From Aphanocapsa sp. GSE-SYN-MK-11-07L (GTDB taxonomy: Bacteria > Cyanobacteriota > Cyanobacteriia > Thermosynechococcales > Thermosynechococcaceae): 41,722 nucleotides of DNA. The position numbers were made by a program, and so were the translations under genes. The notes beneath the pieces were generated by a model that did not search any database, was not told where the DNA came from, and saw nothing but the letters and a program-made list of their open reading frames with translations. Location of the stretch: the NCBI GenBank assembly GCA_019359715.1, contig JAHHGS010000107.1:1-41722 (forward strand). Direction: 5' to 3'. Position 1 is the first letter of the stretch. Every line of letters starts with the position of its first letter. Shown piece by piece: positions 2,691 to 22,877 of the stretch.

Positions 2691-4985
2691 ATGACAATTA
2701 CCCCTGAACAGGTTGACCGCATTATCCACAATCAGCACCACGACCCCTTTGAAATTTTGGGGTCTCATCTGATCGAGCAAGACGGAAAGCCGGCGTGGAT
2801 AGTACGTGCTTATGTACCGAGCGCCAACGCTGCTTGGGTTGTCTGTCCGAGTGAGAAGACAGAGTACCCGATGGAAACCCTCCATAATCCTCACTTCTTT
2901 CAGTGTGTGATTCCAACGTCTGAACTGGTCAACTACCAGTTGCGAATTCGGGAGGGTGAACATGAGCGAGTTTTTTACGATCCTTACTCTTTCAAATCTC
3001 CTCACCTAACTGACTTTGACCTCCACCTCTACGCAGAAGGAAATCATCATCGGATTTACGAAAAGCTAGGCGCACACCTGACGAAACTAGATGGCGTAGA
3101 GGGGGTTTACTTTGCCATTTGGGCTCCCAATGCCCGCAATGTCTCTGTGCTGGGCGACTTCAATTACTGGGACGGCCGAAAGCACCAGATGCGCAGAGGG
3201 ATCACCGGCATTTGGGAATTGTTTATTCCAGGACTGTCTGTCGGCACTCATTACAAGTACGAAATCAAAAATTCGGCTGGACATATTTACGAAAAATCCG
3301 ACCCGTTTGGCTTTGAGCAAGAAGTTCGCCCCAAAACGGCATCGATCGTGGCTGACTTAGAGTCTTATACTTGGCAAGATACAGATTGGCTAGAGCAGCG
3401 CCGACGTTCTGATTCTCTCAGGCAGCCAATTTCAGTCTATGAGGTTCACTTAGGCTCATGGATGCATGGATCGTTTGATCAGCCGCCCCAATTAGCGAAT
3501 GGTGAGCCAGGCACCTCTGTCGGTGTTGCTGACCTGAAGCCTGGAGCTAGATTCTTAACCTACCGAGAATTAGCAGACCGTTTGATTCCCTACGTTAAAA
3601 AGCTCGGCTTTACCCACATCGAACTGTTGCCCGTTGCCGAGCATCCCTTTGATGGGTCCTGGGGCTATCAGGTGGTGGGATACTATGCCTGCACGTCTCG
3701 CTACGGCACGCCAGAAGACTTGATGTACTTTGTTGATCAGTGTCACCTGAATGGTTTGGGGGTGATTATTGATTGGGTACCGGGGCACTTTCCAAAGGAC
3801 GGACACGGCCTCGCATTTTTTGATGGCACTCATTTATACGAGCACTCAGACCCCCGGCAAGGCGAACACCTAGAATGGGGCACCTTAGTCTTTAACTACG
3901 GTCGCCATGAAGTCAGCAATTACCTAATTGCCAACGTTCTATTCTGGTTTGATAAATATCATATCGACGGGATTCGAGTGGATGCTGTTGCTTCCATGCT
4001 CTACCTCGACTATTGCCGTGAACCCGGTGAATGGTTGCCCAACCAGTATGGCGGTCGGGAAAACCTAGAAGCGGCAGAGTTTATTCGGCATATGAATAGC
4101 TTGCTTTTTAGCTATTTTCCAGGGGCGCTGGCGATCGCTGAAGAGTCCACCTCTTACCCGATGGTTTCTTGGCCAACCTATGCCGGCGGGTTAGGCTTCA
4201 ACCTGAAGTGGAACATGGGTTGGATGCACGACATGCTGGACTATTTCCACATGGACCCCTGGTTTCGCCAGTTTCATCAAGATAATGTCACCTTCAGCAT
4301 CATGTATGCCTTCAGCGAGAACTTCATGCTGGCCCTGTCCCACGATGAGGTGGTGCACGGCAAGAGCAACCTGATTGGCAAAATGCCGGGGGATGAGTGG
4401 CAAAAATTTGCTAACCTGCGCTGCTTGTTCACATATATGTTTACCCATCCCGGCAAAAAAACTCTATTTATGGGCATGGAGTTTGGTCAGTGGAGCGAGT
4501 GGAATGTCTGGGGTGACTTAGAGTGGCAGCTTTTGCAATATGAGCCTCATCAAACCCTCCAGAACTTTGTGGCTGACTTAAACCATCTCTATCGCCAAGA
4601 GCCTGCTTTGTATACCCAAGATTTCTCTGGCGAGGGGTTTGAGTGGATTGACTGTAGTGACAACCGCCACAGCGTTGTTTCCTTTATTCGGAAAGCTGAT
4701 GATAGTGAAGAGTTTATTTTGATCGTCTGTAACTTTACCCCCCAACCCCACAGCCACTATCGAGTTGGTGTCCCAGAGCTAGGGTTTTACACTGAACTGA
4801 TTAACAGTGATGCTCGTAAATATGGCGGCAGCAATATGGGAAACCTGGGCGGTAAGTGGGCAGAAGAATGGTCATTCCATAATCGTCCTTATTCCTTAGA
4901 TTTGTGTCTACCTCCCCTCGCGACTTTAGTTCTGAAGCTAGATCGAGAGAAAACCCAGGCGACGCGCAGCCTCTACAATAGTTAG
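2691..4985 (+). CDS. glgB: 1,4-alpha-glucan branching enzyme GlgB
   Basis: Makes the alpha-1,6 branches of glycogen, working on chains made by GlgA in the cytoplasm. From the chosen ATG (MTITPEQVD...) the protein has 764 residues, matching cyanobacterial GlgB; an upstream TTG at 2643 would add 16 unlike residues. Order: N-terminal carbohydrate-binding modules (DPFEILGSH at the start, then GDFNYWDGR), the GH13 barrel with [23 protein letters not shown] (nucleophile Asp), AEEST (acid Glu) and [10 protein letters not shown] (transition-state Asp), and a C-terminal beta domain. It is intact. It ends 51 bp before tRNA-Pro. Confidence 0.95.
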
Positions 4986-5036: not shown

Positions 5037-5110
5037 CGGGATGTGGCGCAGCTTGGTAGCGCACTTCGTTCGGGACGAAGGGGCCGCTGGTTCGAATCCA
5101 GTCATCCCGA
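5037..5110 (+). tRNA. trnP-CGG: tRNA-Pro (anticodon CGG)
   Basis: A 74-nt cloverleaf. The acceptor CGGGATG pairs with CATCCCG at 5103-5109, with discriminator A5110. The D stem is GCGC/GCGC, the anticodon stem CTTCG/CGAAG with loop TTCGGGA (anticodon CGG, reads CCG), and the T arm GCTGG/CCAGT with loop TTCGAAT. The CCA end is not encoded. Its 3' 49 bases are repeated at 22802-22850, so it is the integration target and is kept whole by the element. Confidence 0.95.
5062..5110 (+). other. Left attachment repeat (inside tRNA-Pro)
   Basis: The 3' two-thirds of tRNA-Pro from the base before the anticodon stem to the discriminator base. It is the left copy of the 49-bp direct repeat that bounds the element and it belongs to the intact tRNA. 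Confidence 0.85.
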
Positions 5111-5203
5111 TCGGTTGGGGAACCGTTAATTTGTAAGGCTTTTGGGAGTTTCCAGACATCTCCTGAAGGTCTTTTTTGTTGTCAACAAGCCAACGAGAAT
5201 CGG
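5111..5203 (+). repeat. S repeat, left inner copy
   Basis: The 93 bp directly after the tRNA are repeated imperfectly, in the same orientation, outside the right end at 22878-22968 (about three quarters identical by eye). Shared blocks are TCGGTTGGG, GTAAGGCTTTTGGGA, TCCAGAC and AAGCCAACGAGAAT. It opens with a small hairpin, CGGTT-GGGG-AACCG (5112-5125), that may end the tRNA transcript. Confidence 0.7.
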
Positions 5204-5251: not shown

Positions 5252-6355
5252 ATGAAATGCACAATTGAAAACCACAATGGCAGGCTACGACTGCGTTGGC
5301 TCTACCAGGGCAAACGCTACACAATGGGCTGTGGCGTATCTGATACCCCGACTGGAAGGGCATTAGCCAAACAGAAGGCCAGTCGAATCGAACTCGATAT
5401 TGGGGCTGGCTATTTCGACCCCACATTGCTCAAATATAAACCTCGGATTCTAGGCAAGACTGCAACAGAGTTGACCTGTCCTGAATTGTTTGAGCAGTTT
5501 ACCCAAGCAATGAAGCGAGACAAGGCTCTCTGTCCTGGTTCACTGGAACGATATAAGGGGTGTCTGTCTCACCTGCGGCGATCGCTGTCTATCCCCGCTC
5601 ATCAGGTTACGCTCACCAGAGCAGGCAACTTTGCCAGTGTCCTGCTGGAGTCGGTCTGTAATCGCACTGCCAAAGAATACCTCTGGATGCTCAAAGCCTG
5701 TTGGGATTGGGCCAATGGTAACTATCACCTTGGTTCTGAGAACCCCTGGTCAAGCCAGTTACAGAGGATCAAACCTCAACCCCGACAGAAAACCAAGCCC
5801 TTCACTGTGGCAGAAGTGAGGGCCATTCTGGCAGGGTTCAAGGGCGATCGCTATTATTCGCACTATGCCGACGTGGTTGCCTTCTTATTTGGCGTAGGTT
5901 GTCGTCCGGGTGAGGCATTTGGGCTGCGCTGGCAGCACATCTCAGACACCTTTGAGACCTGCTGGATTGGTGAGAGTGTCAGCCGCGGAGTAAGGAAGTC
6001 AACCAAGACTGGGCGGGCCAGGACTATCCTGCTCAGCGCTTCGATTCAGGAAATGTTGCGATCACGGTTTCTGGCAGCCAACCCGAAGCCTGATGATTTA
6101 GTTTTTCCGGCTCCCAAGGGTGGCCCAATCAACGATAGATTATTCAACCGCCGCGCTTGGCATACTGTTCTAGAGCGGTGCAATATCGAATATCGCAAGC
6201 CCTACGGAATGCGTCACACCGCCATTAGTCATGCCCTAGCGAATGGGGCACACCATATCCAGGTGGCCGAACAAACAGGGCATGATGCGCGAGTTTTATA
6301 TTCTAGTTACGCGGCTGTGATCGAGGCTAAATCAGTATTTGTGGAGTTTTTATAA
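5252..6355 (+). CDS. int: Tyrosine recombinase (phage-type integrase)
   Basis: 367 residues. Residues 1-60 look like the short arm-binding domain (RLRLRWLYQGKRY), 70-170 the SAM-like core-binding domain, and 180-367 the catalytic domain. Catalytic positions: R218 in GCRPGEAFGLRW, K252 in TKTGRAR, R321 in YGMRHTAISHAL, H344 in QTGHDA and Y353 in LYSSYAAV. The usual His of the HxxR box is Tyr here (Y318). It should recombine the tRNA-Pro site with the circular element. The gene points into the element and its TAA overlaps the next ATG (TAATG), implying translational coupling. The ATG is chosen because the frame upstream runs into the terminator-like S repeat. Confidence 0.92.
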   Translation: MKCTIENHNGRLRLRWLYQGKRYTMGCGVSDTPTGRALAKQKASRIELDIGAGYFDPTLLKYKPRILGKTATELTCPELFEQFTQAMKRDKALCPGSLERYKGCLSHLRRSLSIPAHQVTLTRAGNFASVLLESVCNRTAKEYLWMLKACWDWANGNYHLGSENPWSSQLQRIKPQPRQKTKPFTVAEVRAILAGFKGDRYYSHYADVVAFLFGVGCRPGEAFGLRWQHISDTFETCWIGESVSRGVRKSTKTGRARTILLSASIQEMLRSRFLAANPKPDDLVFPAPKGGPINDRLFNRRAWHTVLERCNIEYRKPYGMRHTAISHALANGAHHIQVAEQTGHDARVLYSSYAAVIEAKSVFVEFL

Positions 6356-7359: not shown

Positions 7360-7623
7360 ATGGCACCAAAAACCCAGCTACAGCAATTTCCATTCGTTGG
7401 ATCGGCGGTTCTCGAAGCGCGGCTAGATCTACGAAAAACCCAACGGGTCGAACTTCAACGACAATTACCGTCCCCCCTTTACTGGTGGAAGTTTCCGGGT
7501 GGCCGCAAGATTTTTTGGAACTGGTTGCTTGTTCAGGATTTTCTGCTGAACGGCGATGTCCCAGCCCACCAGCGGCTAGTTGAGGAATATTTGGCGACTC
7601 TGCCCAGCAACCGGCCCGCCTAA
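7360..7623 (+). CDS. Small unknown protein upstream of the primase
   Basis: 87 residues, not recognised. The N-terminal half is polar and basic (LEARLDLRKTQRVELQRQL). The second half is rich in aromatic residues (PLYWWKFPGG, IFWNWLLVQDFLL) and could form a compact helical domain. A good ribosome site (ggagg, 11 bases upstream) precedes the ATG, which supports a real gene. It lies 73 bp before the primase start and is likely the first gene of the replication-packaging unit. Two HIP1 octamers at 7630-7637 and 7652-7659 follow its stop and can pair with each other. Confidence 0.6.
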   Translation: MAPKTQLQQFPFVGSAVLEARLDLRKTQRVELQRQLPSPLYWWKFPGGRKIFWNWLLVQDFLLNGDVPAHQRLVEEYLATLPSNRPA

Positions 7624-7696
7624 AAAAGCGCGATCGCCCCTGCTACGGAGTGCGATCGCTCAAAATTTTTGTGCAAATATCTACAGGTATTTTACC

Positions 7697-8338
7697 GTGC
7701 TAACACCAACCCACCACACCGAAATCGTCGGGGGCAGCGGCGTATCTGAACAAATAGCAGTTCTAAATTTTTGGACAATCACTGACCCGGTCGAGGTCGA
7801 TAAACTGCTCAACCGCAGCAACAGGGGCGGGAAGAACTCAGCGCAACTGGTTCCGGGTTGGGCTGTCGCAGGGGTTGACCCGACCACGGGTAAACGGTGG
7901 CTACAGGGCGTTCAGTTCAAACCAGACAGTCCCCCCACTGACCGCGAGGGTAAGCCCCAAAAATACCTGAGCGCTTCAGGGCGCGAAACCCAACCCCTTT
8001 TTCTGGACACGGGCGACGCGGGTTACTGGCAGAGGGTTCTGGCTGACCCAACCATCCCGATCATCATCACTGAGGGGGCAAAAAAATCAGGCTGTTTGCT
8101 AACTCTGGGCTATGCCGCTATCTCCCTCCCCGGCGTGTGGAATGGGCAGAAACAGGGGCGACTCAAACCGCTGATTCAGCAAATTTGCGCCGTTGGTCGC
8201 CAGGTGGGGATGGGGTTCGACGCTGATCTGATGGAAAAACGGGGCGTGCGACAGGCCCTGGACAAATCGGGGCAGATGCTCACCAACGCGGGGTGTGTGG
8301 TTTTGGTTATGCTGGGACAGCCAGTACAAAGGCATTGA
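7697..8338 (+). CDS. DUF3854-type primase domain, N-terminal part of a frameshifted primase-helicase
   Basis: From GTG 7697 (LTPTHHTEIVGGSG, VSEQIAVLNFWTI), which matches the usual opening of DUF3854 proteins of cyanobacterial plasmids and phages; the frame is open further upstream but reads poorly. DUF3854 is a Toprim-like primase domain: here IIITEGAKKSG and VGMGFDADL are the expected Toprim acidic motifs. The last codons (LGQPVQRH) are out of frame: the next frame carries WDSQYKGIDDL, the normal continuation. One extra base between about 8300 and 8312 explains the break. The rest of the protein is the entry at 8295-10304. Confidence 0.75.
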   Translation: MLTPTHHTEIVGGSGVSEQIAVLNFWTITDPVEVDKLLNRSNRGGKNSAQLVPGWAVAGVDPTTGKRWLQGVQFKPDSPPTDREGKPQKYLSASGRETQPLFLDTGDAGYWQRVLADPTIPIIITEGAKKSGCLLTLGYAAISLPGVWNGQKQGRLKPLIQQICAVGRQVGMGFDADLMEKRGVRQALDKSGQMLTNAGCVVLVMLGQPVQRH

Positions 8339-10304
8339 TGATCTAGCGGTGGGAGCTGGCCCGGATGCAGTGAAGGCGGCGATCGCTGGTGCGAAAACGT
8401 TTGAGGCGTGGCGGTCAGACACCCAAAAACAGAATAAGGCGGCGCAGCAACCCAAGCCAAGGGCGGGCGATCAGCGCCCCCTTATCAGACTGGAGCCAGG
8501 GCAGTTGATATTAACCCTCACCCAAATTGAGACAAAATTGGGACAATCCAACTCACCCAGAGATGCGATTTACGCTCAGGGAAATCATGACGGAACGTAT
8601 CTGAGCAGGGTGCTGAAATCCGCCCCAGACAGTAGAAGCAGCCACATCGAGATTTCCCCAGACGTTGACTCTCTCGACCTGCTAACGGCTGAAACGCTGG
8701 TATACGAGTTAAATAAGCGGTTTCGTTTTGAGCGGTATGATGCCCGAATTCGTGGCTACGTGCCGGCGGATTGTCCTCGCAACCTAGCCGCCCAATTCCT
8801 GGCAATGGGGAGGTGGCCTAATCTGCCCCGGTTAACCGGAATCAGCCATATTCCGCTGCTGCTGAGAGATGGCACGGTCATCAATCAGCCAGGCTATCAC
8901 TCCCCAACGGGGATGCTGTTACAGTTCGATCCTGGTGATTTCCCGGCAATCCCTGTGTGCTGTTCCAAAGATGCCGCGATCGCGGCATTGGCTGTTCTGA
9001 TTGATTGGTTGAGCGAATTTCCATTTCAACACCCACGGCACCGATCAGCCGCCCTTTCTGCTGTGCTGACGGCGGTGTGTCGCAGGTTGCTCAAACAATC
9101 CCCCCTAAATGCGATCAGTGCAACCAAGGCGGGGACGGGTAAGGGGACGCTGGCTAGGGGGATTTCAATCTTGGCTCTGAATGGCCACGCTGGCACTATC
9201 CCGTTTACCGGGGATTCTGAGGAGTTCAGAAAAAAAATGACCAGCTTCCTAAAGTCTGGGCAGCCCATCGGCATGATTGATAACGTGACAGGGATTCTAG
9301 GCGGTGACGTACTGGAAATGGTGCTGACGGAGCCATTTTTCAAAGATCGGCTGCTGGGTGGGAATCAGATGCCCAGCTTCAGTACCCAGGTCACACTGTT
9401 GGCCAACGGCAATAACCTAAGATTCAGACCCGACATGACGCGCCGGACAATCCTGTGTGTTTTGGATAGAGAGTCTGAGAATCCCGAACTGCACAAATTC
9501 GAGCGAAATTTTGAGGAGTTTACAATAGCCAACCGGGGGCGGTTGGTGATGGCAGCACTGACGATTCTCAAATCCTATCTGGACGCTGGACAGCCCGAAA
9601 AAATACAGCCTAAACTGGGCAGCTTTGAGGGCTGGTCTGACCTAGTTCGATCAGCTCTTGTCTGGCTAGGGGAATCTGATCCAGTGGAAACGCAACGAGA
9701 ATTGGCAGCACAGGACGATCAGCGACAAACGTTAGGGGCGCTACTCCAGTCCTGGTACGACAAATATGAGAGCACGTCACAAACCGCCAGAGAGGTTTGC
9801 GTTGGGGTGATTACCAATGGCGGCGATCTGAAAGATGTGCTGTTGGAGGTAGCGTTAGATCGCAGCGGTGAGATCTCACCCCGCAGGCTGAGCTATTACC
9901 TCCGTAGCCACAATCGAAGCGTAGTAAACCGGATGCGGTTCGAGAACGCTGGCAACGACCGATTAGGTTACGCGCAGTGGCGCGTGAGAGTTTTAGCTAG
10001 TCCGCCGGAAACATCCTCTGCATCCTCAGCAGAAACCCCGCAAACAACGCAAAATCAGGGATTTAACTGTGCTGAGGATAAAATTCTATCGTCAGCACCC
10101 ATCCTCAGCACTCAGGCAGCCAGTCAAAACGGCGGGCAACCTCAACGAGAGATGCAGAGGATGCAAATTCTATCCTCAGCAGGGTCAAACAACGGTAAAT
10201 CAATACTTGTAGCCATACCTGCTGAAGATGCAGAGGATAGTTCCAGCCAATCCGGTAAAACTGTCAATTTTGAATCGGAGGTGATCGATGCTGACGATTT
10301 CTAA
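8295..10304 (+). CDS. Primase-helicase, helicase part (P-loop ATPase) after a frameshift
   Basis: The sequence continues the DUF3854 domain from WDSQYKGIDDL, so the GTG at 8295 is probably not a true start. The middle holds a P-loop ATPase of the SF3/phage primase-helicase kind: Walker A ATKAGTGKGTLA, Walker B PIGMIDNV, a sensor-like LLANGNNLR and an arginine cluster DMTRRTI. Whole protein about 870 residues, as expected for a satellite or plasmid replication initiator (P4 alpha is the well-known analogue). The last 110 residues are low complexity and encoded by iteron-like repeats. Likely role: unwinding and priming at the element origin. The stop overlaps the next gene's start region. Confidence 0.8.
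   Translation: MWFWLCWDSQYKGIDDLAVGAGPDAVKAAIAGAKTFEAWRSDTQKQNKAAQQPKPRAGDQRPLIRLEPGQLILTLTQIETKLGQSNSPRDAIYAQGNHDGTYLSRVLKSAPDSRSSHIEISPDVDSLDLLTAETLVYELNKRFRFERYDARIRGYVPADCPRNLAAQFLAMGRWPNLPRLTGISHIPLLLRDGTVINQPGYHSPTGMLLQFDPGDFPAIPVCCSKDAAIAALAVLIDWLSEFPFQHPRHRSAALSAVLTAVCRRLLKQSPLNAISATKAGTGKGTLARGISILALNGHAGTIPFTGDSEEFRKKMTSFLKSGQPIGMIDNVTGILGGDVLEMVLTEPFFKDRLLGGNQMPSFSTQVTLLANGNNLRFRPDMTRRTILCVLDRESENPELHKFERNFEEFTIANRGRLVMAALTILKSYLDAGQPEKIQPKLGSFEGWSDLVRSALVWLGESDPVETQRELAAQDDQRQTLGALLQSWYDKYESTSQTAREVCVGVITNGGDLKDVLLEVALDRSGEISPRRLSYYLRSHNRSVVNRMRFENAGNDRLGYAQWRVRVLASPPETSSASSAETPQTTQNQGFNCAEDKILSSAPILSTQAASQNGGQPQREMQRMQILSSAGSNNGKSILVAIPAEDAEDSSSQSGKTVNFESEVIDADDF
10013..10238. 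repeat. Nine iteron-like 10-bp repeats, candidate replication origin
   Basis: The motif ATCCTCAGCA or its complement TGCTGAGGAT occurs at 10013, 10022, 10070, 10088, 10101, 10153, 10172, 10220 and 10229 (start positions). Four copies are exact and five have one mismatch; five are in one orientation and four in the other. The copies encode different peptides depending on strand and frame, so the DNA rather than the protein seems conserved. The setting, inside the 3' end of the initiator gene, fits an origin bound by the primase-helicase. Confidence 0.65.
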
Positions 10305-10632
10305 GGCTTCGATTGGAGCGATCGCCTATGGCAGATCGGGAGTTGGCTACCCAGTTAAAGAAGTCAAAGGCGATCGCTTAGTTCTGCGAACACCTAACGG
10401 GTTGAAGCGGGTGCCTTGGGGTGCCGTAATTCAGTGGGAATTGCCAGCAGTGCCGCCCCTCAACTATCAATTTGGTCAAAGGGTTGAGGTTTTCTTTCTC
10501 AAAAAAAACATTTGGCGGCAGGGGTATCGATTTTTGAGCTACAGCCAGGCCTGGCCAGACCGAGTATGGCTGCATTGCCCAGAAGGACACTCTGCTACCT
10601 GCAACACAAATCTATTCAGAGGTGAGCAATGA
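10288..10632 (+). CDS. Small unknown protein, possibly SH3-like fold
   Basis: 114 residues, family not recognised. It alternates short strands and turns (RLVLRTPNGLKRVPWGAVIQWE, QRVEVFFLKKNIWRQGYRF), suggesting an SH3-like or KOW-like beta barrel as in small nucleic-acid-binding proteins; this is an inference. The ATG lies inside the last codons of the primase gene in another frame (17-bp overlap) and follows a good ribosome site (cggagg), so translation is coupled. It ends next to the following small gene. Its place between replication and packaging genes suggests an accessory role in either. Confidence 0.6.
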   Translation: MLTISKASIGAIAYGRSGVGYPVKEVKGDRLVLRTPNGLKRVPWGAVIQWELPAVPPLNYQFGQRVEVFFLKKNIWRQGYRFLSYSQAWPDRVWLHCPEGHSATCNTNLFRGEQ

Positions 10633-10979: not shown

Positions 10980-11510
10980 ATGGCAAAAACTGGCCCCAAA
11001 CGAACCAAAATTCAACAGCAGCTTGATCAAGCGGCGATCGCTGAATTGACGCTGAAGGGCTGGACACAGTTACAGATTGCCCAACACCTAGAGCTTGACC
11101 AAAGTACCGTCAGCCGCGACCTGAGAGCAATTCAAGAGCAGTGGAAAGCAAACGCACTCCGAGACTTTGACGCTGATAAGACGGCAGAGTTAGAGAACCT
11201 GAAGCAGTTGAAGCGAGAATATTGGGCCGCCTGGGAGCGCTCGCAAGCAGACCGGGAAATTAGTAGCCTTGAGAAATTGGCAACTGGATGTGGTGCTGAG
11301 CATCAAGCCCTGGGCCGAGTCAAGGTTAGCAATCGCACAGAGCAGCGCAATGGCGATCCGGCTTTCCTGAATGGACTGGTGAAGATTGTTGAGCTTGAGA
11401 GCAAATTGCTCGGACTGTTCCCGACTGAAAAAACCGCTGGCAATAGCGCGATCGCGCTTACTGACACCCAGCTCGGCACCCTCGCAGACCTGATGAGAAA
11501 CATCCCATGA
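10980..11510 (+). CDS. terS: Helix-turn-helix protein, probable small terminase subunit
   Basis: 176 residues. A helix-turn-helix is clear at about residues 17-50: IAELTLKGWTQLQIAQHLELDQSTVSRDLRAI. The middle (ENLKQLKREYWAAWERSQ) is likely coiled coil, and a helical C-terminal part follows. Small terminases have this layout and recognise the packaging site of the phage or satellite. The stop overlaps the start of the large terminase (ATGA, 4 bp), the usual arrangement for the pair. Without the large terminase beside it, it could be read as a plain HTH regulator. If it is TerS, it decides which DNA is packaged. Confidence 0.75.
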   Translation: MAKTGPKRTKIQQQLDQAAIAELTLKGWTQLQIAQHLELDQSTVSRDLRAIQEQWKANALRDFDADKTAELENLKQLKREYWAAWERSQADREISSLEKLATGCGAEHQALGRVKVSNRTEQRNGDPAFLNGLVKIVELESKLLGLFPTEKTAGNSAIALTDTQLGTLADLMRNIP

Positions 11511-12892
11511 CCGCCACCCTTAGCCAGCAGGTCGTCACTCAGTTCATCCGAGACAACCTGCTGGGCTACTCTACCGCCCAATTCCCCGACTTCAAACCAG
11601 GACGGCATCACAAGCTGCTGGCAGCCAAGCTAGAGGATGTCGCTGTTGGCAGAAGTAAGCGCCTCGCCGTATTGATGGCCCCCAGACACGGCAAGTCGAA
11701 GCTCTCTTCTGAACTCTTCCCCAGTTGGTATTTAGGGCATCACCCCAGTCAGCGGATCTTGAGTCTCAGCTACGGTCAGGATTTAGCGGATGTGTTTGGG
11801 CGATCGGTTCGCAACTATATGAGAACCCCGACCTTTGGGGCGCTCTTTCCTGAGTGCCAGCTCTCCAGTGACTCCAATAGCATCAAGCGCTTCAACACCA
11901 ATGCAGGCGGCGGTTACGCCACAATTGGTGTCGGCGGTGCCACCACGGGGCGAGGGGCTGATTTGTTGATCATGGATGACCTGATCAAAGACCGGGAGCA
12001 GGCCGATAGTCCCGTCTACCGGGAGCATCTGATCGACTGGTACAAAAGCGTTGCCAGAACCCGACTCCAACCCGGTGGCTCAATTGTGTTAGTGCAAACC
12101 AGATGGCAAGCGAGCGACTTTGTGGCGTGGCTCTTAGCCGAAACAAGCCATGAGGGATGGCAGGTGATTAGTTTGCCTGCGATCGCCCTTGATAGTGACC
12201 CCTTGGGCAGACAGCCTGGTGAAGCCCTCTGGCCAGAAGCCTATCCCCTATCGGCACTGGAAGAAATCAGAACGACCCTAGGTAGCCGGGACTGGAGCAG
12301 TCTCTACCAGCAGTGCCCGATCAGCGATGCTGACGTGATCTTTAATCCCCAGTGGGTGCAATATCACTATGGAATTCCTAGAATTGAAACTCCCCAAATT
12401 ATCCACAGTTGGGACTTGAGTTTTGGGGGCACCTCGTCTGGTCATTCGTGGGTAGTTGGGCAAGCCTGGGCTTTTGATATGCCGAATCGACGCTGCTATC
12501 TAATGCAAATGATCAGAGAGCAGATGGGCTTCAATGCGGCGATCGCCGCCATCCGCAGCCTGAATGAGCAGTACCCAGCCAGCCGGATTCTGGTCGAGAA
12601 CAAAGCCAATGGGCCAGCAGTGATTGAGTGCCTAGAGAAAGAGATTCCCTACTTAGAGGCAGTCTTACCCAAAGGGGGCAAGAGCGATCGCGCCTATGCT
12701 GTGACTCCGATGTTTGAGCGGGGCGAAGTGTTTCTGCCTGATCCCGATTTCAGCCCTTGGATCAAATCCTTGCTGATTGAAATGCAGAGCTTCCCGATGT
12801 CGCAGTCAGATGATTGTGTGGACGCTATGACCCAAGCCCTGAAATATTACCAGGAAAAACTGCACCTCCAGGCATGGTGGGACAATATTTGA
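11507..12892 (+). CDS. terL: Phage terminase large subunit
   Basis: 461 residues, full length. ATPase part: Walker A at residues 58-65 (APRHGKSK), Walker B at about 152-158 (DLLIMDDL), coupling region VQTRW. Nuclease part (RNase H fold): D303 in SWDLSFGG, E364 in VENKANGP, and the DD-xx-D at 435-439 (SDDCVDAMTQAL). It would cut and pump DNA into a procapsid. Packaging needs a portal and capsid, which are not encoded here; a helper phage would have to supply them, or the element is dead. It overlaps terS by 4 bp. HIP1 octamers occur in it, so the gene is at home in cyanobacteria. Confidence 0.93.
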   Translation: MTATLSQQVVTQFIRDNLLGYSTAQFPDFKPGRHHKLLAAKLEDVAVGRSKRLAVLMAPRHGKSKLSSELFPSWYLGHHPSQRILSLSYGQDLADVFGRSVRNYMRTPTFGALFPECQLSSDSNSIKRFNTNAGGGYATIGVGGATTGRGADLLIMDDLIKDREQADSPVYREHLIDWYKSVARTRLQPGGSIVLVQTRWQASDFVAWLLAETSHEGWQVISLPAIALDSDPLGRQPGEALWPEAYPLSALEEIRTTLGSRDWSSLYQQCPISDADVIFNPQWVQYHYGIPRIETPQIIHSWDLSFGGTSSGHSWVVGQAWAFDMPNRRCYLMQMIREQMGFNAAIAAIRSLNEQYPASRILVENKANGPAVIECLEKEIPYLEAVLPKGGKSDRAYAVTPMFERGEVFLPDPDFSPWIKSLLIEMQSFPMSQSDDCVDAMTQALKYYQEKLHLQAWWDNI

Positions 12893-13755: not shown

Positions 13756-15186
13756 CTAATCGGATAAATCTGCTTGCTGTCCAGGTTTTTGTTGCAATTT
13801 TACCGCTTTGCCCTTGGGCTGGTCTTGCCTTTCTGCCCGAATCCGCTCCAGCAAGACCGCTGCGGGTTCATCATCGGGGTCTTGGGGCACGAGTTCACCC
13901 CGGAAGGCTTTAGCGAGGGTAGCTTGTTCTAGCCTGTCGCACAGCTTGCTGGCTTTTTGATATTCCTGCTCGATCAAATCAATGGCTTTGAACAGTTTTT
14001 CAACTCGCTGAACAATTTCCTTTTGTTCCTCAACTTCTGGCAAATCAATTGGTAAACTTACTAAAGTAGGCTGATTTATCTTTGGCATATTTCCTGCGGT
14101 TCCAGTTGCTCTATTCCTCAAATACTTTCTCGATTTCTCACAGGAAAGTAGAACGTGCAAAAACCGAGTTAAAACCATTGGTTTTGCACGAAGACGCATC
14201 ATTAAATCAGGAAAGATAAATTGGTTAGGAGAACCATCGTATATTGCCGAAACCCCTACGTATTCTATGGTATTACCTCTCTGAACTAAAATATCATCTG
14301 GTTGTAGCCAGAAGGATGATTCCTTATCAATATTTTCATCAAAGTATTTAAAGTGTTCTGAATTAAATTTTCCTGATGTTGTCGCTGTCAATGTTATTAC
14401 TCGAAATGGTGTTTCATAATTAACTGGCTTTGCAGAGTAACCATTTTTTGGCTTATCTATAATCAGTTCACCTAGAGTAGTTGATTGCCAAATAGAATCA
14501 AAATTATTCTCTTCTCTCCAATCAGCAGTAAGATGACCAGAGCAGGCGGCGGTTAAGATAGTCTGTCTGTAGCGATCGCACAACCCAGAAACCCGCTCCA
14601 ACTCCTCACGGGCACGGCGGCTATGGGCAAACAGGCGATCGAGCTTGGCAACAATGCGGTGTTGTTCAGAAATCGGTGGGACTGGAAGATTTATTTCCTT
14701 CAAAAACTGTGCAGGAACACGACGCTGCCCAACGGCTCCTGTCATATACCGTTCAGCTTCTTTACGAAAATCTACCTGACGGACGAAGCGCCACAGATAT
14801 TCAGGTAGAACTGCTCCTAAAGATCGTAGAACATGAAACTCGGTGGAGCCGCACGCGAGACCATTGTGAAGCTCGCTTGCAAGCGCAATTTTCCCATTCT
14901 CCATGCAGGGTGTAATCTTGGCGAAGATTACATCGTTATCTTGAAAGTGAGTGTACCCTTTCCATACCTCTTCAAGAAGACGGGTTTCATAGGAGAGAAT
15001 AATCCCCTCTTGATCACAAACAGCAGGCATTGGCACAAATGATACTGCTGTTTGTCTATCGATCAATGAGCTATGGCGTGGGTTGAAATCGCATAATTGC
15101 TCCAATGCAGCTTTATTCCATCCCTTTGGCAATTGATTCACGATACTGTCATCTGTCGAGAGTCCGTCATTGATGGGGTTATTCAT
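13756..15186 (-). CDS. hsdS: Type I restriction-modification specificity subunit HsdS
   Basis: 476 residues, standard two-half structure. TRD1 is about residues 15-180, followed by a coiled-coil spacer (EQHRIVAKLDRLFAHSRRAREELERV, about 185-215). TRD2 is about 230-400, then a second coiled coil (EEQKEIVQRVEKLFKAIDLIEQEYQKAS). It recognises the bipartite target and directs both HsdM and HsdR. Its ATG overlaps the vapC stop (ATGA at 15183-15186). The TRD2 region (roughly 14040-14520) is distinctly richer in A+T than the rest of the gene, a sign of TRD exchange. It is intact. Confidence 0.93.
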   Translation of the reverse strand: MNNPINDGLSTDDSIVNQLPKGWNKAALEQLCDFNPRHSSLIDRQTAVSFVPMPAVCDQEGIILSYETRLLEEVWKGYTHFQDNDVIFAKITPCMENGKIALASELHNGLACGSTEFHVLRSLGAVLPEYLWRFVRQVDFRKEAERYMTGAVGQRRVPAQFLKEINLPVPPISEQHRIVAKLDRLFAHSRRAREELERVSGLCDRYRQTILTAACSGHLTADWREENNFDSIWQSTTLGELIIDKPKNGYSAKPVNYETPFRVITLTATTSGKFNSEHFKYFDENIDKESSFWLQPDDILVQRGNTIEYVGVSAIYDGSPNQFIFPDLMMRLRAKPMVLTRFLHVLLSCEKSRKYLRNRATGTAGNMPKINQPTLVSLPIDLPEVEEQKEIVQRVEKLFKAIDLIEQEYQKASKLCDRLEQATLAKAFRGELVPQDPDDEPAAVLLERIRAERQDQPKGKAVKLQQKPGQQADLSD

Positions 15187-15593
15187 GGTGTTTCTGCCTC
15201 CCAGTCTGCCAGCGACAAGCCCTCTACTCGACTAAATTCACGGGTATTGTGAGTGACTAGTGTGAGATTGTGAGCTAGGGCGATGGCGGCAATTTGTAGG
15301 TCGTAGGAGCCGATAGGAGTTCCCGATGCTTTCAATTGGGCACGTAGCCGCCCACAAATGGCAGCGGCTTTACCATCGAAGGGTAAACTCACAAAGTCTC
15401 CAAAAAACTTTCGCAGATTTTCTAGATTTTCTGTTATTCGGGAACTGTTATAAGCGCCATAAAAAAGTTCAAATTTCACCACATCGCAAATGTATACATC
15501 GTCTGGAGACAATGCAATCAGGGTTTCATAGACTCGCAGATTACGACGATTAATGTACTGAATGCAGGTATTGGTATCCAACAAATAAATCAT
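15183..15593 (-). CDS. vapC: VapC-type PIN-domain ribonuclease toxin
   Basis: 136 residues, a complete PIN domain. Acidic sites: D6 in LLDTNTC, E42 in FELFYGA, D98 in GSYDLQIAA, and the THNTREF motif near the end, typical of VapC enzymes that cut initiator or other tRNAs. Its start overlaps the stop of the vapB-like gene by one base, and its stop overlaps the hsdS start by 4 bp, so it is translationally locked between antitoxin and specificity subunit. It should be silent while the antitoxin is made and could punish loss of the operon. Confidence 0.88.
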   Translation of the reverse strand: MIYLLDTNTCIQYINRRNLRVYETLIALSPDDVYICDVVKFELFYGAYNSSRITENLENLRKFFGDFVSLPFDGKAAAICGRLRAQLKASGTPIGSYDLQIAAIALAHNLTLVTHNTREFSRVEGLSLADWEAETP

Positions 15594-15955
15594 TAAAAGG
15601 GCTCTCGTTCTGATGCTTCTTCTTGAGGTGCCCTAACTAAAGGTTCACCTTGCCAAGCACCAAACGTACTTAAGAATTCTGTTGACCATTGCCGCTTCTT
15701 CGTTATCTTTGTGTGATCTTGATTCTGATGCATTTTATCTCGCAACTGTTGAAACATTGCTTCAGCATCGATAAACTGATCCTGATTCGCCGCTTCTACA
15801 CCAACCTGCACCGCTTGCTGAAGTTGTTTAAATCGCTTCTGATAGACTTGCTCCCACTCATCCGTTTGCAAAAGTTCAATGAAGGTAAGTACCTCTTGTT
15901 GCTTTTCAGGTGACAAGACCCGCACCTTGTCGATAATGGTTTGTTCAGTGGTCAT
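15593..15955 (-). CDS. vapB: VapB-like (DUF2281-type) antitoxin
   Basis: 120 residues, directly upstream of vapC and overlapping it by one base. The N-terminus IIDKVRVLSPEKQQEVLTFIELL is a DUF2281-type helical segment of antitoxins. The C-terminal end (FGAWQGEPLVRAPQEEASEREPF) is a flexible tail that would wrap round the toxin. The middle is helical and longer than in most VapB proteins. A DNA-binding domain of AbrB or RHH type is not obvious, so regulation may come from the whole operon. Function inferred from position and these motifs. Confidence 0.7.
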   Translation of the reverse strand: MTTEQTIIDKVRVLSPEKQQEVLTFIELLQTDEWEQVYQKRFKQLQQAVQVGVEAANQDQFIDAEAMFQQLRDKMHQNQDHTKITKKRQWSTEFLSTFGAWQGEPLVRAPQEEASEREPF

Positions 15956-15974
15956 TTTCTGGCTCCTAACTGAT

Positions 15975-16574
15975 CTAAAAACTCTCAGGATTGGGGAATT
16001 CTACTTCTTCATAAACCAGCGCCAGCGGACAGCTAAAATCAAGACTCAGCAGTTCCAGAACCGGATCTTCTCCATGCGCTGCATCTTCCGGGTAAGCGGT
16101 CAGTTCCCATTTGCCCGTGCTGGTTTTGCGATAGCAATCTATCCCTACCTTCTCGGCATCAATCAACACATACTCTTGCAAAGTCGAGATCCGGCGGTAG
16201 AACCTGAACTTGTCACCGCGATCAAAAGCGGCTGTGCCGGGCGAGAGAACTTCAACAATCAGCTTGGGGTAACTAATCGCATCCGTCGCTCGGCGATCGC
16301 GATCGTCGCAGCTTACCACCAGATCAGGATAAAAATAGGGGCCGGCTGGGCTAACCCGCACCTTGGCATCTGCAACATTGGCTCGGCACCCCTTGCCTCG
16401 GATCTGAGATCGCACCAAGCTATAGAGATTCAGCGCAATGTCATTATGGGGCAGCGTTCCCCCCGTCATGGCGTAAACTTCCCCCTCAATGTATTCGTGT
16501 TTGAGGGGTTGCTCGGCTTCCCAAGCCAGATATTCAGCCGGAGTCATGAATTGGGACTGGGTTTGAGCAATCAT
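15975..16574 (-). CDS. Uma2 family putative endonuclease
   Basis: 199 residues, full-length Uma2 (DUF820), a PD-(D/E)XK-fold family expanded in cyanobacteria. Visible motifs: MTPAEYLAWE at the start, KHEYIEGEVYAM, YPDLVVSC, LIVEVLSPGT (the E-V-L of the nuclease core) and LQEYVLID. Its ATG overlaps the hsdM stop by 4 bp, so it is cotranslated with the methylase; the antitoxin gene follows after 19 bp. The target is unknown. Being in the R-M operon, it could act in defence, but Uma2 genes are often found in unrelated contexts. Confidence 0.88.
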   Translation of the reverse strand: MIAQTQSQFMTPAEYLAWEAEQPLKHEYIEGEVYAMTGGTLPHNDIALNLYSLVRSQIRGKGCRANVADAKVRVSPAGPYFYPDLVVSCDDRDRRATDAISYPKLIVEVLSPGTAAFDRGDKFRFYRRISTLQEYVLIDAEKVGIDCYRKTSTGKWELTAYPEDAAHGEDPVLELLSLDFSCPLALVYEEVEFPNPESF

Positions 16575-18046
16575 GACTTGCCTCCAGGTGGGGTGAACTC
16601 CTCGATCATTATCTCAATCTCTCGCAGGGCATTGCCCAAATGGGTGGCGATCGCCGCCGCAATCTCCTCCGGTTCAGTGAGTTCATCCTCTGGGTCATTG
16701 CTGGTATCCCGCAACCAGCTAATGTCTAGATTGTCATTGCGATCGGCAATCTGCTCACGGGTGAAACAACGAAATCGCCCTGACTCTCCCTGATCAATAC
16801 GCTTGGCTATGCCCAAAGGGTCATCCCCAAACGCCGCTTCAAACTCGGAAAAATCGGCTACGGTGAGCAGCCGAGTTTTGCCAAAGCTGTTCATGTTGGC
16901 TCGCAGGTCATACACCCAGACATTTTTGGTGTTGCCACGATCCTTCTTGCCCCGTGTGAAAAACAGCACATTCGTTTTCACCCCTTGGGCGTAAAAAATC
17001 CCCGTCGGCAGTCGCAAAATCGTATGCAGGTCGCACAATTCTATGAGTTGCTGCCGCAGCTTCCGCCCTGTATTGTCCTCAAACAAGACATTATCCGGTA
17101 GCACCACCGCTGCCCTACCGCCAGGGTTCAAAGCCCGATAAATATGCTCGACAAAGGCCAACTGCTTGTTCGAAGTTTCCGCTGTGACGGAAAAATCAGC
17201 GCGGGTGGGTCGCCCGCCGCCCTTCTTGGTGCCAAACGGCGGATTGGTCAGGATCACATCGGCTTTGCCCAAGGCTTCGCCATCCGGTGACAGGCTATCG
17301 CCGCACCCGACGCTGCCTTCAATCCCGTGCAGGAGCAAATTCATCAGGCAAAGCCGGTGCGTGTCTGGCACCAGCTCCAGCCCTTGATAAGCCTGATGGC
17401 GCTGGAAATGGGCCTGATCCTTGGTCAGGGTATAAAGCTCGTCCGTGTGCCGCTTGATATACTGATCTGCCGCCACCAAAAAACCACCCGTTCCCGCTGC
17501 TGGGTCTTGAATCACTTCCCCAGCCTGGGGTTGCACCAACCGGACAATGCAATCAATCAAAGGACGCGGTGTGAAGTATTGCCCTGCCCCTGATTTTTTC
17601 TCGGCAGCGTTCTTCTCCAGCAAGCCTTCATAGAGATTGCCCAAGCCTTCTTCCCGGGCCGAAAACCAGTCCAGTCGGTCGATCGCATCGGTCAATGCCT
17701 TCAGGTTAGTTGGTTTTCTGAGCTTGGTTTGAGCATCAGTGAAAATCGCTAGCACCACCGGATCTGAAACCTGCTGCTGATTGCCCAAATCTAGCAGGAG
17801 TCGTCGGTAAAACTCCAACTGCTCTAACCCCTCCCGGCTGTCCAGTTCAACCCAACGATAATTGGCCGGTAAGCGGCTCTCTCGCCCCGTCTCCGCCAGC
17901 ATCTTCAGAAACAACAAATAGGTCAGCTCGGTGACATATTCGTTATAGGTGATGCCATCATCGCGCAAAATATGACACAGATTCCACAGTTTGGCGACAA
18001 TATCACGGGTGACGCGACTGGTACTGATTAAGCTGTCTCTTTCCAC
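16571..18046 (-). CDS. hsdM: Type I DNA methyltransferase subunit HsdM
   Basis: 491 residues. The N-terminal helical domain (residues 10-110) is followed by the N6-adenine methylase domain: SAM motif DPAAGTGGF at 181-189, catalytic NPPF at 268-271, and QYFTPRPLID at 156-165. It methylates adenine in the HsdS target and forms M2S1, joined by HsdR for cleavage. Its start overlaps the hsdR end by 19 bp. It ends in a 4-bp overlap with the uma2 gene. Sequence looks intact, so host DNA should be protected. Confidence 0.95.
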   Translation of the reverse strand: MERDSLISTSRVTRDIVAKLWNLCHILRDDGITYNEYVTELTYLLFLKMLAETGRESRLPANYRWVELDSREGLEQLEFYRRLLLDLGNQQQVSDPVVLAIFTDAQTKLRKPTNLKALTDAIDRLDWFSAREEGLGNLYEGLLEKNAAEKKSGAGQYFTPRPLIDCIVRLVQPQAGEVIQDPAAGTGGFLVAADQYIKRHTDELYTLTKDQAHFQRHQAYQGLELVPDTHRLCLMNLLLHGIEGSVGCGDSLSPDGEALGKADVILTNPPFGTKKGGGRPTRADFSVTAETSNKQLAFVEHIYRALNPGGRAAVVLPDNVLFEDNTGRKLRQQLIELCDLHTILRLPTGIFYAQGVKTNVLFFTRGKKDRGNTKNVWVYDLRANMNSFGKTRLLTVADFSEFEAAFGDDPLGIAKRIDQGESGRFRCFTREQIADRNDNLDISWLRDTSNDPEDELTEPEEIAAAIATHLGNALREIEIMIEEFTPPGGKS

Positions 18047-21000
18047 AGTTCCTCGTTGATATCGCCTAAAATTGCTTCCAATTGTCCTTCAAAAATTCGG
18101 TTGAGCCGATTAAACCCGCCATCCGCTTGAAAAGGTTCTTGATCCAGGGCAGAGCGATCAACAATAAATTCACGGGCCACCTGTTCCCCAATCCGCTGCA
18201 ACCATTTACGCTGTGGGTCTGTCCATACTCGCTGGCCTATAATCCGCTTCATCGCCCTCTTGACCCGATCCTCATAGGGAATCAGCGGATCACCCAAGGC
18301 CGCCTGGCGGATAAAGCCAATAATTGAGGCAGCAATGTCCTCATTTTTGGCCTCCTGCCAGGCTTGACGCAGATTGGTTTCTGAATATCCCATCTTATCA
18401 AGCTCCAGCCGCAATTCCCGCAGTTGAGCGCGGGTCAGCTCCCGCGGTCGCTGCAAGACCACGGTCAAGGCTGCCAACCTGTTGACGTTATCGCGCACAT
18501 AGGCAGTAAAGCTGTCTAAAAAGTCATCTGGCCGTTGGGCTGTGCCGTACCCACGGGTAACAGCGACCACTTGATCAGGATGGTGAGCGATCGGCAGCAC
18601 CCTTTCGCCACAGACCGGGTTCCAATCCAGAATCCGCCCAATGCCGGGGCGCTCCCTCACCCATCTAGCCAGGTCTGGCAGGGGTGTAGTCCTGAACCGC
18701 TCCAGCGTCCGTTCAGGCGTTTCGCCGCTCTGCGCCTCGTAGCTCTCCTTCGCTGGCTCTGCCATCTGCCGCAACTTGCGCCCCAGCTTAACCAAGATTT
18801 GGTCGCGAATTTCAGCTTGGTGATCATGCTCAGTCACCTGGACAAACTGATCAAACAACTGCTCCAGGGTAATTGTCGGGTTGACCACAACTGGCTTCAT
18901 CTGGGTCAAAGCCTGCAAATTGGCATACAGATCCACTGCATCAAAAATTCGGAACGTTTGCTTGCCAATCTGATCGCATGGCCGGGTTGCCCGTCCCAAC
19001 ATCTGCTCATAGAGAATCCGGCTATTCACCCGCCGCAAAAACACCAGGTTGGTAATACTGGGCACATCAATGCCCGTGGTCAGCAGGTCAACCGTGACCG
19101 CAATCTTGGGCATCGCATCATTACGGTAAGAACGAATCAGCTCACCTACCTTGTCAACACTGCCGGTAATCTTGCGAACAGCGGCATCTTCAATCTCGCC
19201 GTAGTAATCTGCCATTGCCTGTTTCACCTGCTCAACCACAATGTCTGCATGGGCATCACTAACCGCAAAAATCAAGGTTTTCCCCGGCAGATTTGGATCG
19301 ATGTGTTTGGCTAGCTCCTTTGCGACGGCTTGGTTAAACGGTACAGTAATCACCTTCTTGTTAAACTCATCCACCTCGAAATTTAGATCATCGGGGGCGT
19401 AGGTTTGCTCGACCTGGCGAGTCGCGGCATAGAACACATCCATCGATTCCCCCACTCGAAACCGAATCCCCCCTAGACTCAAGGCAGTAGAGATTTGGAC
19501 AGGTGGCTCATGGTCAATCAGAAAACCATCGACCACTGCCTCCCGATAGGAGTAGGTAAAGACTGGCTCCCCGAAGATTTGCACCGTGTGCAGGGCAGGC
19601 GTGGCCGTCAGCCCAATCTTGACCGCATCAAAATGCTCTAAAACCTGGCGGTATTTGGACACATAATCATCCTGGCTCCGAAAACTCAGCTCGGCATCCG
19701 ACATTTCCCGATCTAGTAAATAGCCTCGGTGACACTCATCAATCAACAGCAGGTCATATTGATCGATGGGTGGAATGGTGCCGGGTTCACTGGCATAGAG
19801 AACTCGCTTCACCAGCCCCTGAATGGTGCAGATATGAACCTTCGTTTCTGATTCTGGGATGATATCTTCTAACCCCTGTAACCCAAAAATATCGCCAAAT
19901 GCCTTCGCTGTCACAACCTTGGTTGTGCGAAACTCCCCCGCTGCCTGAGTTCCCAAAGCACTGCGATCCACGACAAAACAGACCCGGCGGAACCGCTTGG
20001 CCGTTAAGAGTCGGTAAAGCAGGGCGATCGCCAGCTTTGTTTTGCCCGTTCCAGTTGCCATGGCCACCAGCATGACCCGGCTATCCTGTTCCAATCCGCT
20101 TTCAACCGCTTCAATTGCCCGCTGCTGATAGGGTCGGAGGGGAAAACCAAACTGGAAAGACTGGGTTTTCAGAGCAGCATGGGCAGCTTCTCGATCCATG
20201 CCTAGCTGAGCTGCCAAGCCATCCGGCGTCGGCCAACCCGCCAAAGCCCGACGGCGATTGGTGGGTTTCCGCAGATCCCGAAACCAAATCCCGCTTTCTG
20301 TCTCGATTTGTTTGAGATACGGCCGCCCATTGGTTGCAAACACAAAGGGGGCGTGGAACTCCCCCCACGGGCCGCCAGCGATCAGGTCAAATCCATCTCC
20401 GGCTTGAAACCCCTTGGCATATCGCTCCGCCTGATCGATCGCCGCTGAGACGTTCTTGCGTTGGCGCTTGGCTTCAATCAACCCGATACAGCGGGTACCC
20501 ATAAACAGCCCATAATCCGCAATCCCATTAGCCGTTGGCCATTCGGCGATCGCCATGTTCTGTCCCTTCGCTGGTCTGGCTCCCTGCCCATAGCGCAAAT
20601 TCCGGCTATCCACCAACCAGCCCGCCGCTTGCAATTGCTGATCAATAATTGCCCGCGTCTGATCTTCATCGAGGTCAATCACCTTAGCGGTCTCATCCGC
20701 CAAGGAAATCAGCGCTGTCGTCTGTTGCGGGGGCAACTGCTTGGCAGCGATCTGAAGGGTAGCTAACTGCTCTGCCAGTGCGGCTCTAGCCTGTTCAGCC
20801 TCAACTGCTATTTGCTCCCATAATGCACGATCTTCAGCTTCTTGACGGGCTTTTTCCTCGGCGCTCAGCACCGCCCTCGCCCGGTCTTCTGCTACCAGCT
20901 GCGCCCGGTCTGCTTCACTTTGAGTCTGCTCCAGCGCAACCCGCAGACGTTCAAGTTCTGCTGCTAGCTCCGCTGTCAGCTCAGCCGGATTGGGCGGCGG

Positions 21001-21411
21001 CACAAACGCACCAGCCTTGAAACTGGTATCCCCGCTAAAGGTTCGATGAAACCAGATCGCCAATTGTCTGGCCGTCTTTAACATGGTCAGAGCTTCCGCA
21101 TGATCACCGGTATAGGCGTGGGTTGCCCTGTTCCCCACAATCCTAATCTGATGGAACAGCTCAACGACTTCCCGCGATACAACCCGTTCAATCCTTAATC
21201 GGCGTAGCAATTCCGTTTGAGCCTCCTCGGTGGAGGCAAACAACCCTGTTTTGGCAGCGGTCAGTTGGGCCAGCAGTTCGGTAAACTGTCGCAACTTAAT
21301 CAGGCAAGTGCTGGGGTCATCTCGAAAATACTGTTCGGCCAAAGCACCCAGACGCACTAACTGCACGTCATAGGCCCGTAAAAAACCGAAATTGGCCGAT
21401 TCTGTAGCCAT
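18028..21411 (-). CDS. hsdR: Type I restriction endonuclease subunit HsdR
   Basis: 1127 residues, intact. Residues 1-130 are a DUF4145-type helical domain; 145-225 a long coiled coil. The nuclease has D299, E313 and K315 (GLIEAKRQ). The motor has Walker A ATGTGKT at 452-458, DECH at about 565, and later helicase motifs (TGIDVPSITNLVFLR and EQMLGRATR). A helical C-terminal part binds HsdM. It translocates and cuts unmethylated DNA. First gene of the leftward operon, transcribed from the 116-bp gap it shares with the RHH gene. Its start ATG is at 21411-21409. Confidence 0.95.
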   Translation of the reverse strand: MATESANFGFLRAYDVQLVRLGALAEQYFRDDPSTCLIKLRQFTELLAQLTAAKTGLFASTEEAQTELLRRLRIERVVSREVVELFHQIRIVGNRATHAYTGDHAEALTMLKTARQLAIWFHRTFSGDTSFKAGAFVPPPNPAELTAELAAELERLRVALEQTQSEADRAQLVAEDRARAVLSAEEKARQEAEDRALWEQIAVEAEQARAALAEQLATLQIAAKQLPPQQTTALISLADETAKVIDLDEDQTRAIIDQQLQAAGWLVDSRNLRYGQGARPAKGQNMAIAEWPTANGIADYGLFMGTRCIGLIEAKRQRKNVSAAIDQAERYAKGFQAGDGFDLIAGGPWGEFHAPFVFATNGRPYLKQIETESGIWFRDLRKPTNRRRALAGWPTPDGLAAQLGMDREAAHAALKTQSFQFGFPLRPYQQRAIEAVESGLEQDSRVMLVAMATGTGKTKLAIALLYRLLTAKRFRRVCFVVDRSALGTQAAGEFRTTKVVTAKAFGDIFGLQGLEDIIPESETKVHICTIQGLVKRVLYASEPGTIPPIDQYDLLLIDECHRGYLLDREMSDAELSFRSQDDYVSKYRQVLEHFDAVKIGLTATPALHTVQIFGEPVFTYSYREAVVDGFLIDHEPPVQISTALSLGGIRFRVGESMDVFYAATRQVEQTYAPDDLNFEVDEFNKKVITVPFNQAVAKELAKHIDPNLPGKTLIFAVSDAHADIVVEQVKQAMADYYGEIEDAAVRKITGSVDKVGELIRSYRNDAMPKIAVTVDLLTTGIDVPSITNLVFLRRVNSRILYEQMLGRATRPCDQIGKQTFRIFDAVDLYANLQALTQMKPVVVNPTITLEQLFDQFVQVTEHDHQAEIRDQILVKLGRKLRQMAEPAKESYEAQSGETPERTLERFRTTPLPDLARWVRERPGIGRILDWNPVCGERVLPIAHHPDQVVAVTRGYGTAQRPDDFLDSFTAYVRDNVNRLAALTVVLQRPRELTRAQLRELRLELDKMGYSETNLRQAWQEAKNEDIAASIIGFIRQAALGDPLIPYEDRVKRAMKRIIGQRVWTDPQRKWLQRIGEQVAREFIVDRSALDQEPFQADGGFNRLNRIFEGQLEAILGDINEELWKETA

Positions 21412-22801: not shown

Positions 22802-22850
22802 CACTTCGTTCGGGACGAAGGGGCCGCTGCTTCGAATCCAGTCATCCCGA
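22802..22850 (+). other. Right attachment repeat (tRNA-Pro 3' fragment)
   Basis: A 49-bp copy of the tRNA-Pro 3' end with one mismatch (22830, C for G, in the T stem). The 5' half of the tRNA is absent, so it is not a gene. It marks the outer limit of the element. Confidence 0.9.
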
Positions 22851-22877
22851 TGGTCATAAATGACCGGTCGGAGATCA

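Follow-up and report, generated by a model that had tools for sequence, protein, structure and literature searches.

A 226-bp array of short repeats at the 3' end of a helicase gene, found in a 41,722-nucleotide stretch of DNA from the cyanobacterium Aphanocapsa sp. GSE-SYN-MK-11-07L (the window), is in all likelihood the replication origin of the mobile element that carries it, one that the element's helicase binds and that is overprinted on the tail of the gene for this helicase. A probability of roughly 0.85 seems right for this reading, in which binding and initiation are argued by analogy from a homologue. In the mechanism envisaged, the D5/SF3 AAA+ helicase of the ~17.8-kb integrated element would read 9-mers in the array, most likely via its C-terminal winged helix, would assemble, probably as a pair of opposed hexamers, on two mirror-image halves, and would open the DNA, with bidirectional replication of the element starting after excision. 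In most relatives that have an array this DNA is non-coding and lies just past the helicase stop codon; in the window and in several other lineages the frame continues through it, and the last ~100 residues of the helicase would then be a by-product of origin DNA and only incidentally protein.

The repeat array and its symmetry

Between 10013 and 10238 the decamer ATCCTCAGCA/TGCTGAGGAT occurs nine times in both orientations, exactly in four copies and with one mismatch in the other five (starting at 10013+, 10022+, 10070-, 10088+, 10101+, 10153-, 10172+, 10220- and 10229-), each copy being where a preliminary description of this DNA had placed it. The tenth copy, outlying on the - strand (Table 1), may be a chance occurrence. 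Tandem copies are spaced 9 bp apart and so the unit is better viewed as the 9-mer ATCCTCAGC. Eight of the copies make up a two-fold symmetric array, and its four inverted pairs (10013/10229, 10022/10220, 10070/10172 and 10088/10153) have a common centre at 10125.0-10125.5, that is, to within 0.5 bp. An AT-rich melting tract is absent from the array, GC being 0.42-0.55 in 60-bp windows and ~0.55 at the centre. Searching Rfam for an RNA element gave no match, and the strong single-strand fold of the array (z -6.9) is not counted as separate evidence because the array is inverted.

Shuffled sequence does not yield such a cluster. The motif occurs 12 times in the whole window, a count never reached in dinucleotide shuffles (mean 3.2), and the exact decamer has 24 scattered occurrences elsewhere in the 5.1-Mb genome. 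With the protein sequence of the tail held fixed, 1000 codon-usage resamplings and 1000 permutations of synonymous codons gave at most six copies of the motif and at most seven of any 9-mer, against the 10 observed (0/2000 match).

The earlier suggestion that the encoded peptides differ between copies holds in part, in that copies on the two strands give unrelated peptides (most + copies translate as SSA and most - copies as AED), but the reading frame is non-random. The majority of copies are read in one phase, and the tandem period of 9 bp corresponds to three codons, as might be expected were the repeats a protein-level feature, with SSA and AED as low-complexity tripeptides amplified by slippage in a disordered tail. 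Such an origin for the repeats is scarcely credible, since slippage does not yield inverted copies with a common centre, the unrelated peptides of the + and - copies nevertheless change together between the window and its closest relative, L022 (SSA to SPA, AED to AGD), and the cluster is non-coding in most relatives that have a strong one.

Table 1. Features of the proposed origin and of the element around it (window coordinates)
Feature	Position	Strand	Remark
Proposed left att site	5062..5111	+	3' part of tRNA-Pro
Tyrosine integrase of the element	5252..6355	+	
DUF3854 ORF, primase-like module	7580..8338	+	overlaps helicase ORF, other frame
D5/SF3-type helicase gene, proposed initiator Rep	8295..10304	+	conserved domain to ~9989, then tail proposed to be origin-encoded
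C-terminal winged-helix domain, proposed iteron reader	9786..9992	+	about residues 498-566; predicted model
Iteron array, proposed replication origin	10013..10238	.	9-mer ATCCTCAGC; four inverted pairs centred on 10125 and extra copy at 10101
Left outer tandem iteron pair	10013..10031	+	9 bp apart
Left inner iteron, inverted	10070..10079	-	48 bp from outer pair
Left inner iteron	10088..10097	+	18 bp from previous iteron (10070)
Extra copy without symmetry partner	10101..10110	+	missing at matching place in L022
Right inner iteron	10153..10162	-	partner of 10088
Right inner iteron	10172..10181	+	partner of 10070
Right outer tandem iteron pair	10220..10238	-	9 bp apart; mirror of 10013-10031
Outlying single copy	10289..10298	-	one mismatch
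Terminase genes, same element	10980..12892	+	small subunit 10980-11510 (provisional), large 11507-12892
Proposed right att site	22802..22851	+	98% copy of 5062-5111

The helicase gene and the element around it

A 50-bp direct repeat (98%), one copy of which is the 3' part of tRNA-Pro, bounds an integrated element of ~17.8 kb, and shorter repeats stand beside the two copies (5118-5147/22884-22913 and 5172-5200/22937-22965). The element contains an integrase, replication genes, terminase genes and a type I restriction-modification locus (13756-21411), between whose genes a PIN-type toxin-like gene was seen by eye (15183-15593). This layout recalls the PICI satellites, but the AT-rich tract between iteron sets is missing and the element is not classed as a PICI.

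Packaging sites often lie near terS, and the terminase genes follow the array in this same element. A pac/cos-like packaging site, serving the small terminase subunit whose gene lies 680 bp downstream, is nonetheless a very improbable function for the array, which accompanies the helicase and not the terminase: it is present in the plasmids pWTY27 and pCM32 and in the Streptomyces plasmid of locus L021, with no terminase annotated in the nearby stretch examined, and it is the helicase homologue that binds it in pWTY27 (PMC3583192).

The array had been described as lying inside the 3' end of a primase gene. The 3' location stands, but the gene is the D5/SF3-type helicase half of a replication module and not a primase. 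ORF 8295-10304 has no Pfam match; it aligns with plasmid and phage replication helicases and matches phrog_29234. An AlphaFold2 model of its helicase domain (mean pLDDT 94), made from an input alignment of 57 window and locus sequences, matches 7ola/7om0 (the SaPI5 primase-helicase) with Z ~14 and 7pds with Z 13, the best structural relatives being the SaPI5 primase-helicase, staphylococcal PriRep1 bound to dsDNA, poxvirus D5/E5 (vaccinia D5), the ASFV prim-pol and NrS-1. A sequence search of solved structures turned up nothing but spurious matches to designed proteins, and it is on the modelled fold that the product is predicted to be a D5-type SF3 AAA+ helicase. At its C-terminal end the model has three helices and two strands in winged-helix order (model residues 448-516, i.e. 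protein residues 498-566), and the array begins at 10013, ~23 bp past the end of the helicase domain (~9989).

Upstream, at 8232-8338, the DUF3854 and helicase ORFs overlap and are read in separate frames. At the break between them the DUF3854 match ends, having reached profile position 109 of 130, and so a frameshift, either genuine or a sequencing artefact, may have divided what was one gene; damage to the replicon is possible, as is an error in the sequence. Such a break between the two ORFs would suit a former origin now decaying as a remnant in a defective element, as would a related locus, L004, that is visibly broken and has lost its array. Decay is nevertheless unlikely here, given that the helicase has an uninterrupted frame of 669 codons in which the family-invariant residues are retained, and that all four symmetric pairs are kept in the array.

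A tie between such arrays and the DUF3854 domain was considered and rejected, since such clusters are missing from most of the long DUF3854 proteins sampled in related genomes. At one locus (L200, about 3708-3967) nine copies of CGTATTGCG occur in both orientations, 645-904 bp past the ORF of a DUF3854 protein.

Relatives of the helicase and of its array

The closest full-length relative of the helicase, on a Coleofasciculus metagenome-assembled contig (L022), is 67% identical over the best segment and about 75% identical in the helicase domain. In the matching part of its gene L022 has nine copies, eight of them exact, of a different word, ATCTCCTGCA, and neither this word nor ATCCTCAGCA is present in the other's tail. 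The gaps between copies are 9, 9, 48, 18, 44, 19, 48 and 9 in L022 and 9, 48, 18, (13, 52), 19, 48 and 9 in the window, and the four inverted pairs of L022 likewise have one common centre. From window to L022 the peptides of the + copies go from SSA to SPA and those of the - copies from AED to AGD. One word is thus kept per locus in both orientations and the peptides are not, which argues that all the sites have changed in concert and that selection acts on the DNA. Selection on DNA rather than on peptide had been proposed from the window's sequence, and it gains support both from the shuffles, which do not yield the repeats, and from the different word at matching sites in L022. Homologues with the same protein tail and no repeats would speak against it, and the only relative sharing the tail, L022, has an array. 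The winged helices of the two proteins show R/K and S/G differences in the third helix, and VVNRM in the window becomes VISGL in L022 just after it.

The broken helicase relative L004 (contig C255 of the related genome G001), at about 640-1010, jumps from the winged helix directly to the C-terminal end seen in L022, the wing and the entire array region being gone. Homology of the window ORF 10288-10632 to this C-terminal end of L022 was looked for and is unsupported.

Single-protein scans of the genome and of viral contigs found no relatives; 115 loci with the helicase domain were collected, and 79 were left after reduction to below 80% identity, relatives other than L022 being distant (about 25-38% identity). 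Alignments were used three sequences at a time, and each locus was scanned on both strands for the 9-mer with most copies, allowing one mismatch, in 300-bp windows. The count just past the helicase domain is the highest anywhere in the locus in 35 of 78 testable loci, the window included. With the window left out, the 77 relatives have a mean of 6.1 copies of the best 9-mer past the helicase versus 3.6 in size-matched blocks of the same loci, and 35 of them rank among the top 5% of blocks at their own locus (p about 1e-25). By the 9-mer scan roughly half of the relatives have only a weak cluster or no cluster at all, which may mean that it is truly missing, that its copies have diverged or that the method falls short.

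Relatives with an array at this place occur among both phages and plasmids. The 9-mer words vary between lineages, and the usual layout in the family is two or three tandem copies 9 bp apart, then a spacer of ~60-130 bp and the mirror image. Of the 35 strong cases, those with six copies or more, eight have the array within the ORF and 27 have it downstream. The tree requires at least four changes between these two states and therefore overprinting has been gained or lost repeatedly. Where the array is inside the ORF the tails carry complementary tripeptide repeats, as a 9-bp period predicts.

An experimental anchor comes from the plasmid pWTY27, whose RepA (gene at 621-2237) is homologous to the window helicase (tblastn, 29% identity over residues 165-567, E 2e-28), with invariant residues common to both in the alignment. 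Its 9-mer scan, made independently of the published work, picked out CGTGGGAAC in ten copies at the same place and with mirror symmetry. The two systems are alike in having repeats in both orientations that start just past the helicase, in mirror-symmetric arrangement and with 9-bp tandem pairs. Operators and centromere-like sites are also typically clustered inverted repeats, and an initiator can act at both, so that the array might be an operator or partition site at which the helicase or some other DNA-binding protein acts in autoregulation or segregation and not in initiation. This is quite unlikely, because the array does not precede the replication genes but sits where the helicase gene ends, on its 3' side, and because the pWTY27 counterpart is essential for replication (PMC3583192). 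In that plasmid a 300-bp stretch directly downstream of repA (321-620) is needed for replication and contains GTGGGAAC repeats in both orientations, His-tagged RepA binds the iteron region with a footprint at 405-509, and a derivative of the plasmid replicates bidirectionally (PMC3583192). The proposal that the array is an origin recognised by the product of the gene containing it is thereby strengthened, in that a homologue binds iterons 3' of its own gene. pWTY27 differs from the window in that its array, with the word GTGGGAAC, is non-coding whereas that of the window is inside the helicase ORF, and in that its priming module is a prim-pol whereas the upstream module in the window is DUF3854.

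Known origins and the wider pattern

SaPI5 Rep, from the SaPI/PICI rep-ori replicons, and Cch2 of SCCmec show a relation to the window helicase only at the fold level. Both are D5-type AAA+ helicases with a C-terminal winged helix or DNA-binding domain, an arrangement that is predicted for the window. In Cch2 the C-terminal domain binds iterons 3' of its own gene (PMC7581432), and SaPI Rep, whose origin is directly downstream of rep, is thought to bind as two hexamers (PMC6092414). The SaPI and PICI elements have a layout similar to that of the element in the window, with iterons at the 3' end of rep and genes for an integrase and a terminase. Their iterons flank an AT-rich tract, in contrast to the two mirror sets of the window with no such tract. 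The preliminary description had likened the in-gene array to P4 alpha, for which a search of open-access literature on P4 crr yielded nothing of use, and to several satellite Rep proteins, but SaPI/PICI origins are just downstream of rep and not inside it (PMC6092414, PMC7581432), and the well-documented in-gene precedent is instead lambda O, where the ori-lambda iterons lie within the initiator's own coding sequence (PMC7466680), as they would in the window for its proposed initiator. Unlike the protein of the window lambda O is not a helicase, and its four longer iterons are mid-gene beside an AT-rich tract, with no mirror-symmetric tail array. The archaeal pRN1 ORF904 is likewise a primase/SF3 helicase with a winged helix, and an essential cis element of poorly conserved sequence lies just 3' of its gene; in contrast to the array, this element is described as a stem-loop and not as multiple iterons (PMC4234260).

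Origins 3' of Rep helicases are already known, as are origins within the gene of an initiator such as lambda O (PMC7466680). Not found described in the open-access literature searched were the combination of these two, the fixed mirror geometry with a word that changes freely and in concert, the recurrence of such arrays in the family and their repeated move into coding sequence.

A second helicase family offers a lead, not an established rule. In one sampling of DUF3987 helicases from related cyanobacteria (nine loci, L208-L216) a 9-mer is present in 6-13 copies towards the 3' end of the gene, in both orientations and for the most part within the reading frame; two of these loci (L209 and L210) are elsewhere in the window's own genome. 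The repeats are often followed by a short SH3/KOW-like C-terminal stretch. No prior description of DUF3987 or DUF3854 origins was found in the open-access literature searched, and one may exist elsewhere.

On balance it seems somewhat probable that overprinting of the origin on a disordered tail is common to many mobile-element replication helicases, from a minimum of two unrelated families (D5/SF3 and the cyanobacterial DUF3987), the tripeptide repeats in such tails (SPASPA/AGDAGD, EGYEGY/PSEPSE, AGVAGV/TPATPA) being the protein shadow of 9-bp iterons and the array word being replaced in concert as helicase specificity changes. Repeats in such helicase tails should accordingly not be taken for protein motifs. 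For unannotated phages, satellites and plasmids an origin-finding rule would follow, namely to search just past the winged helix of a D5-type helicase with the reading frame included, and the window and L022, having the same geometry and different words, would be a ready system for studying a joint change of specificity in an initiator and its eight binding sites.
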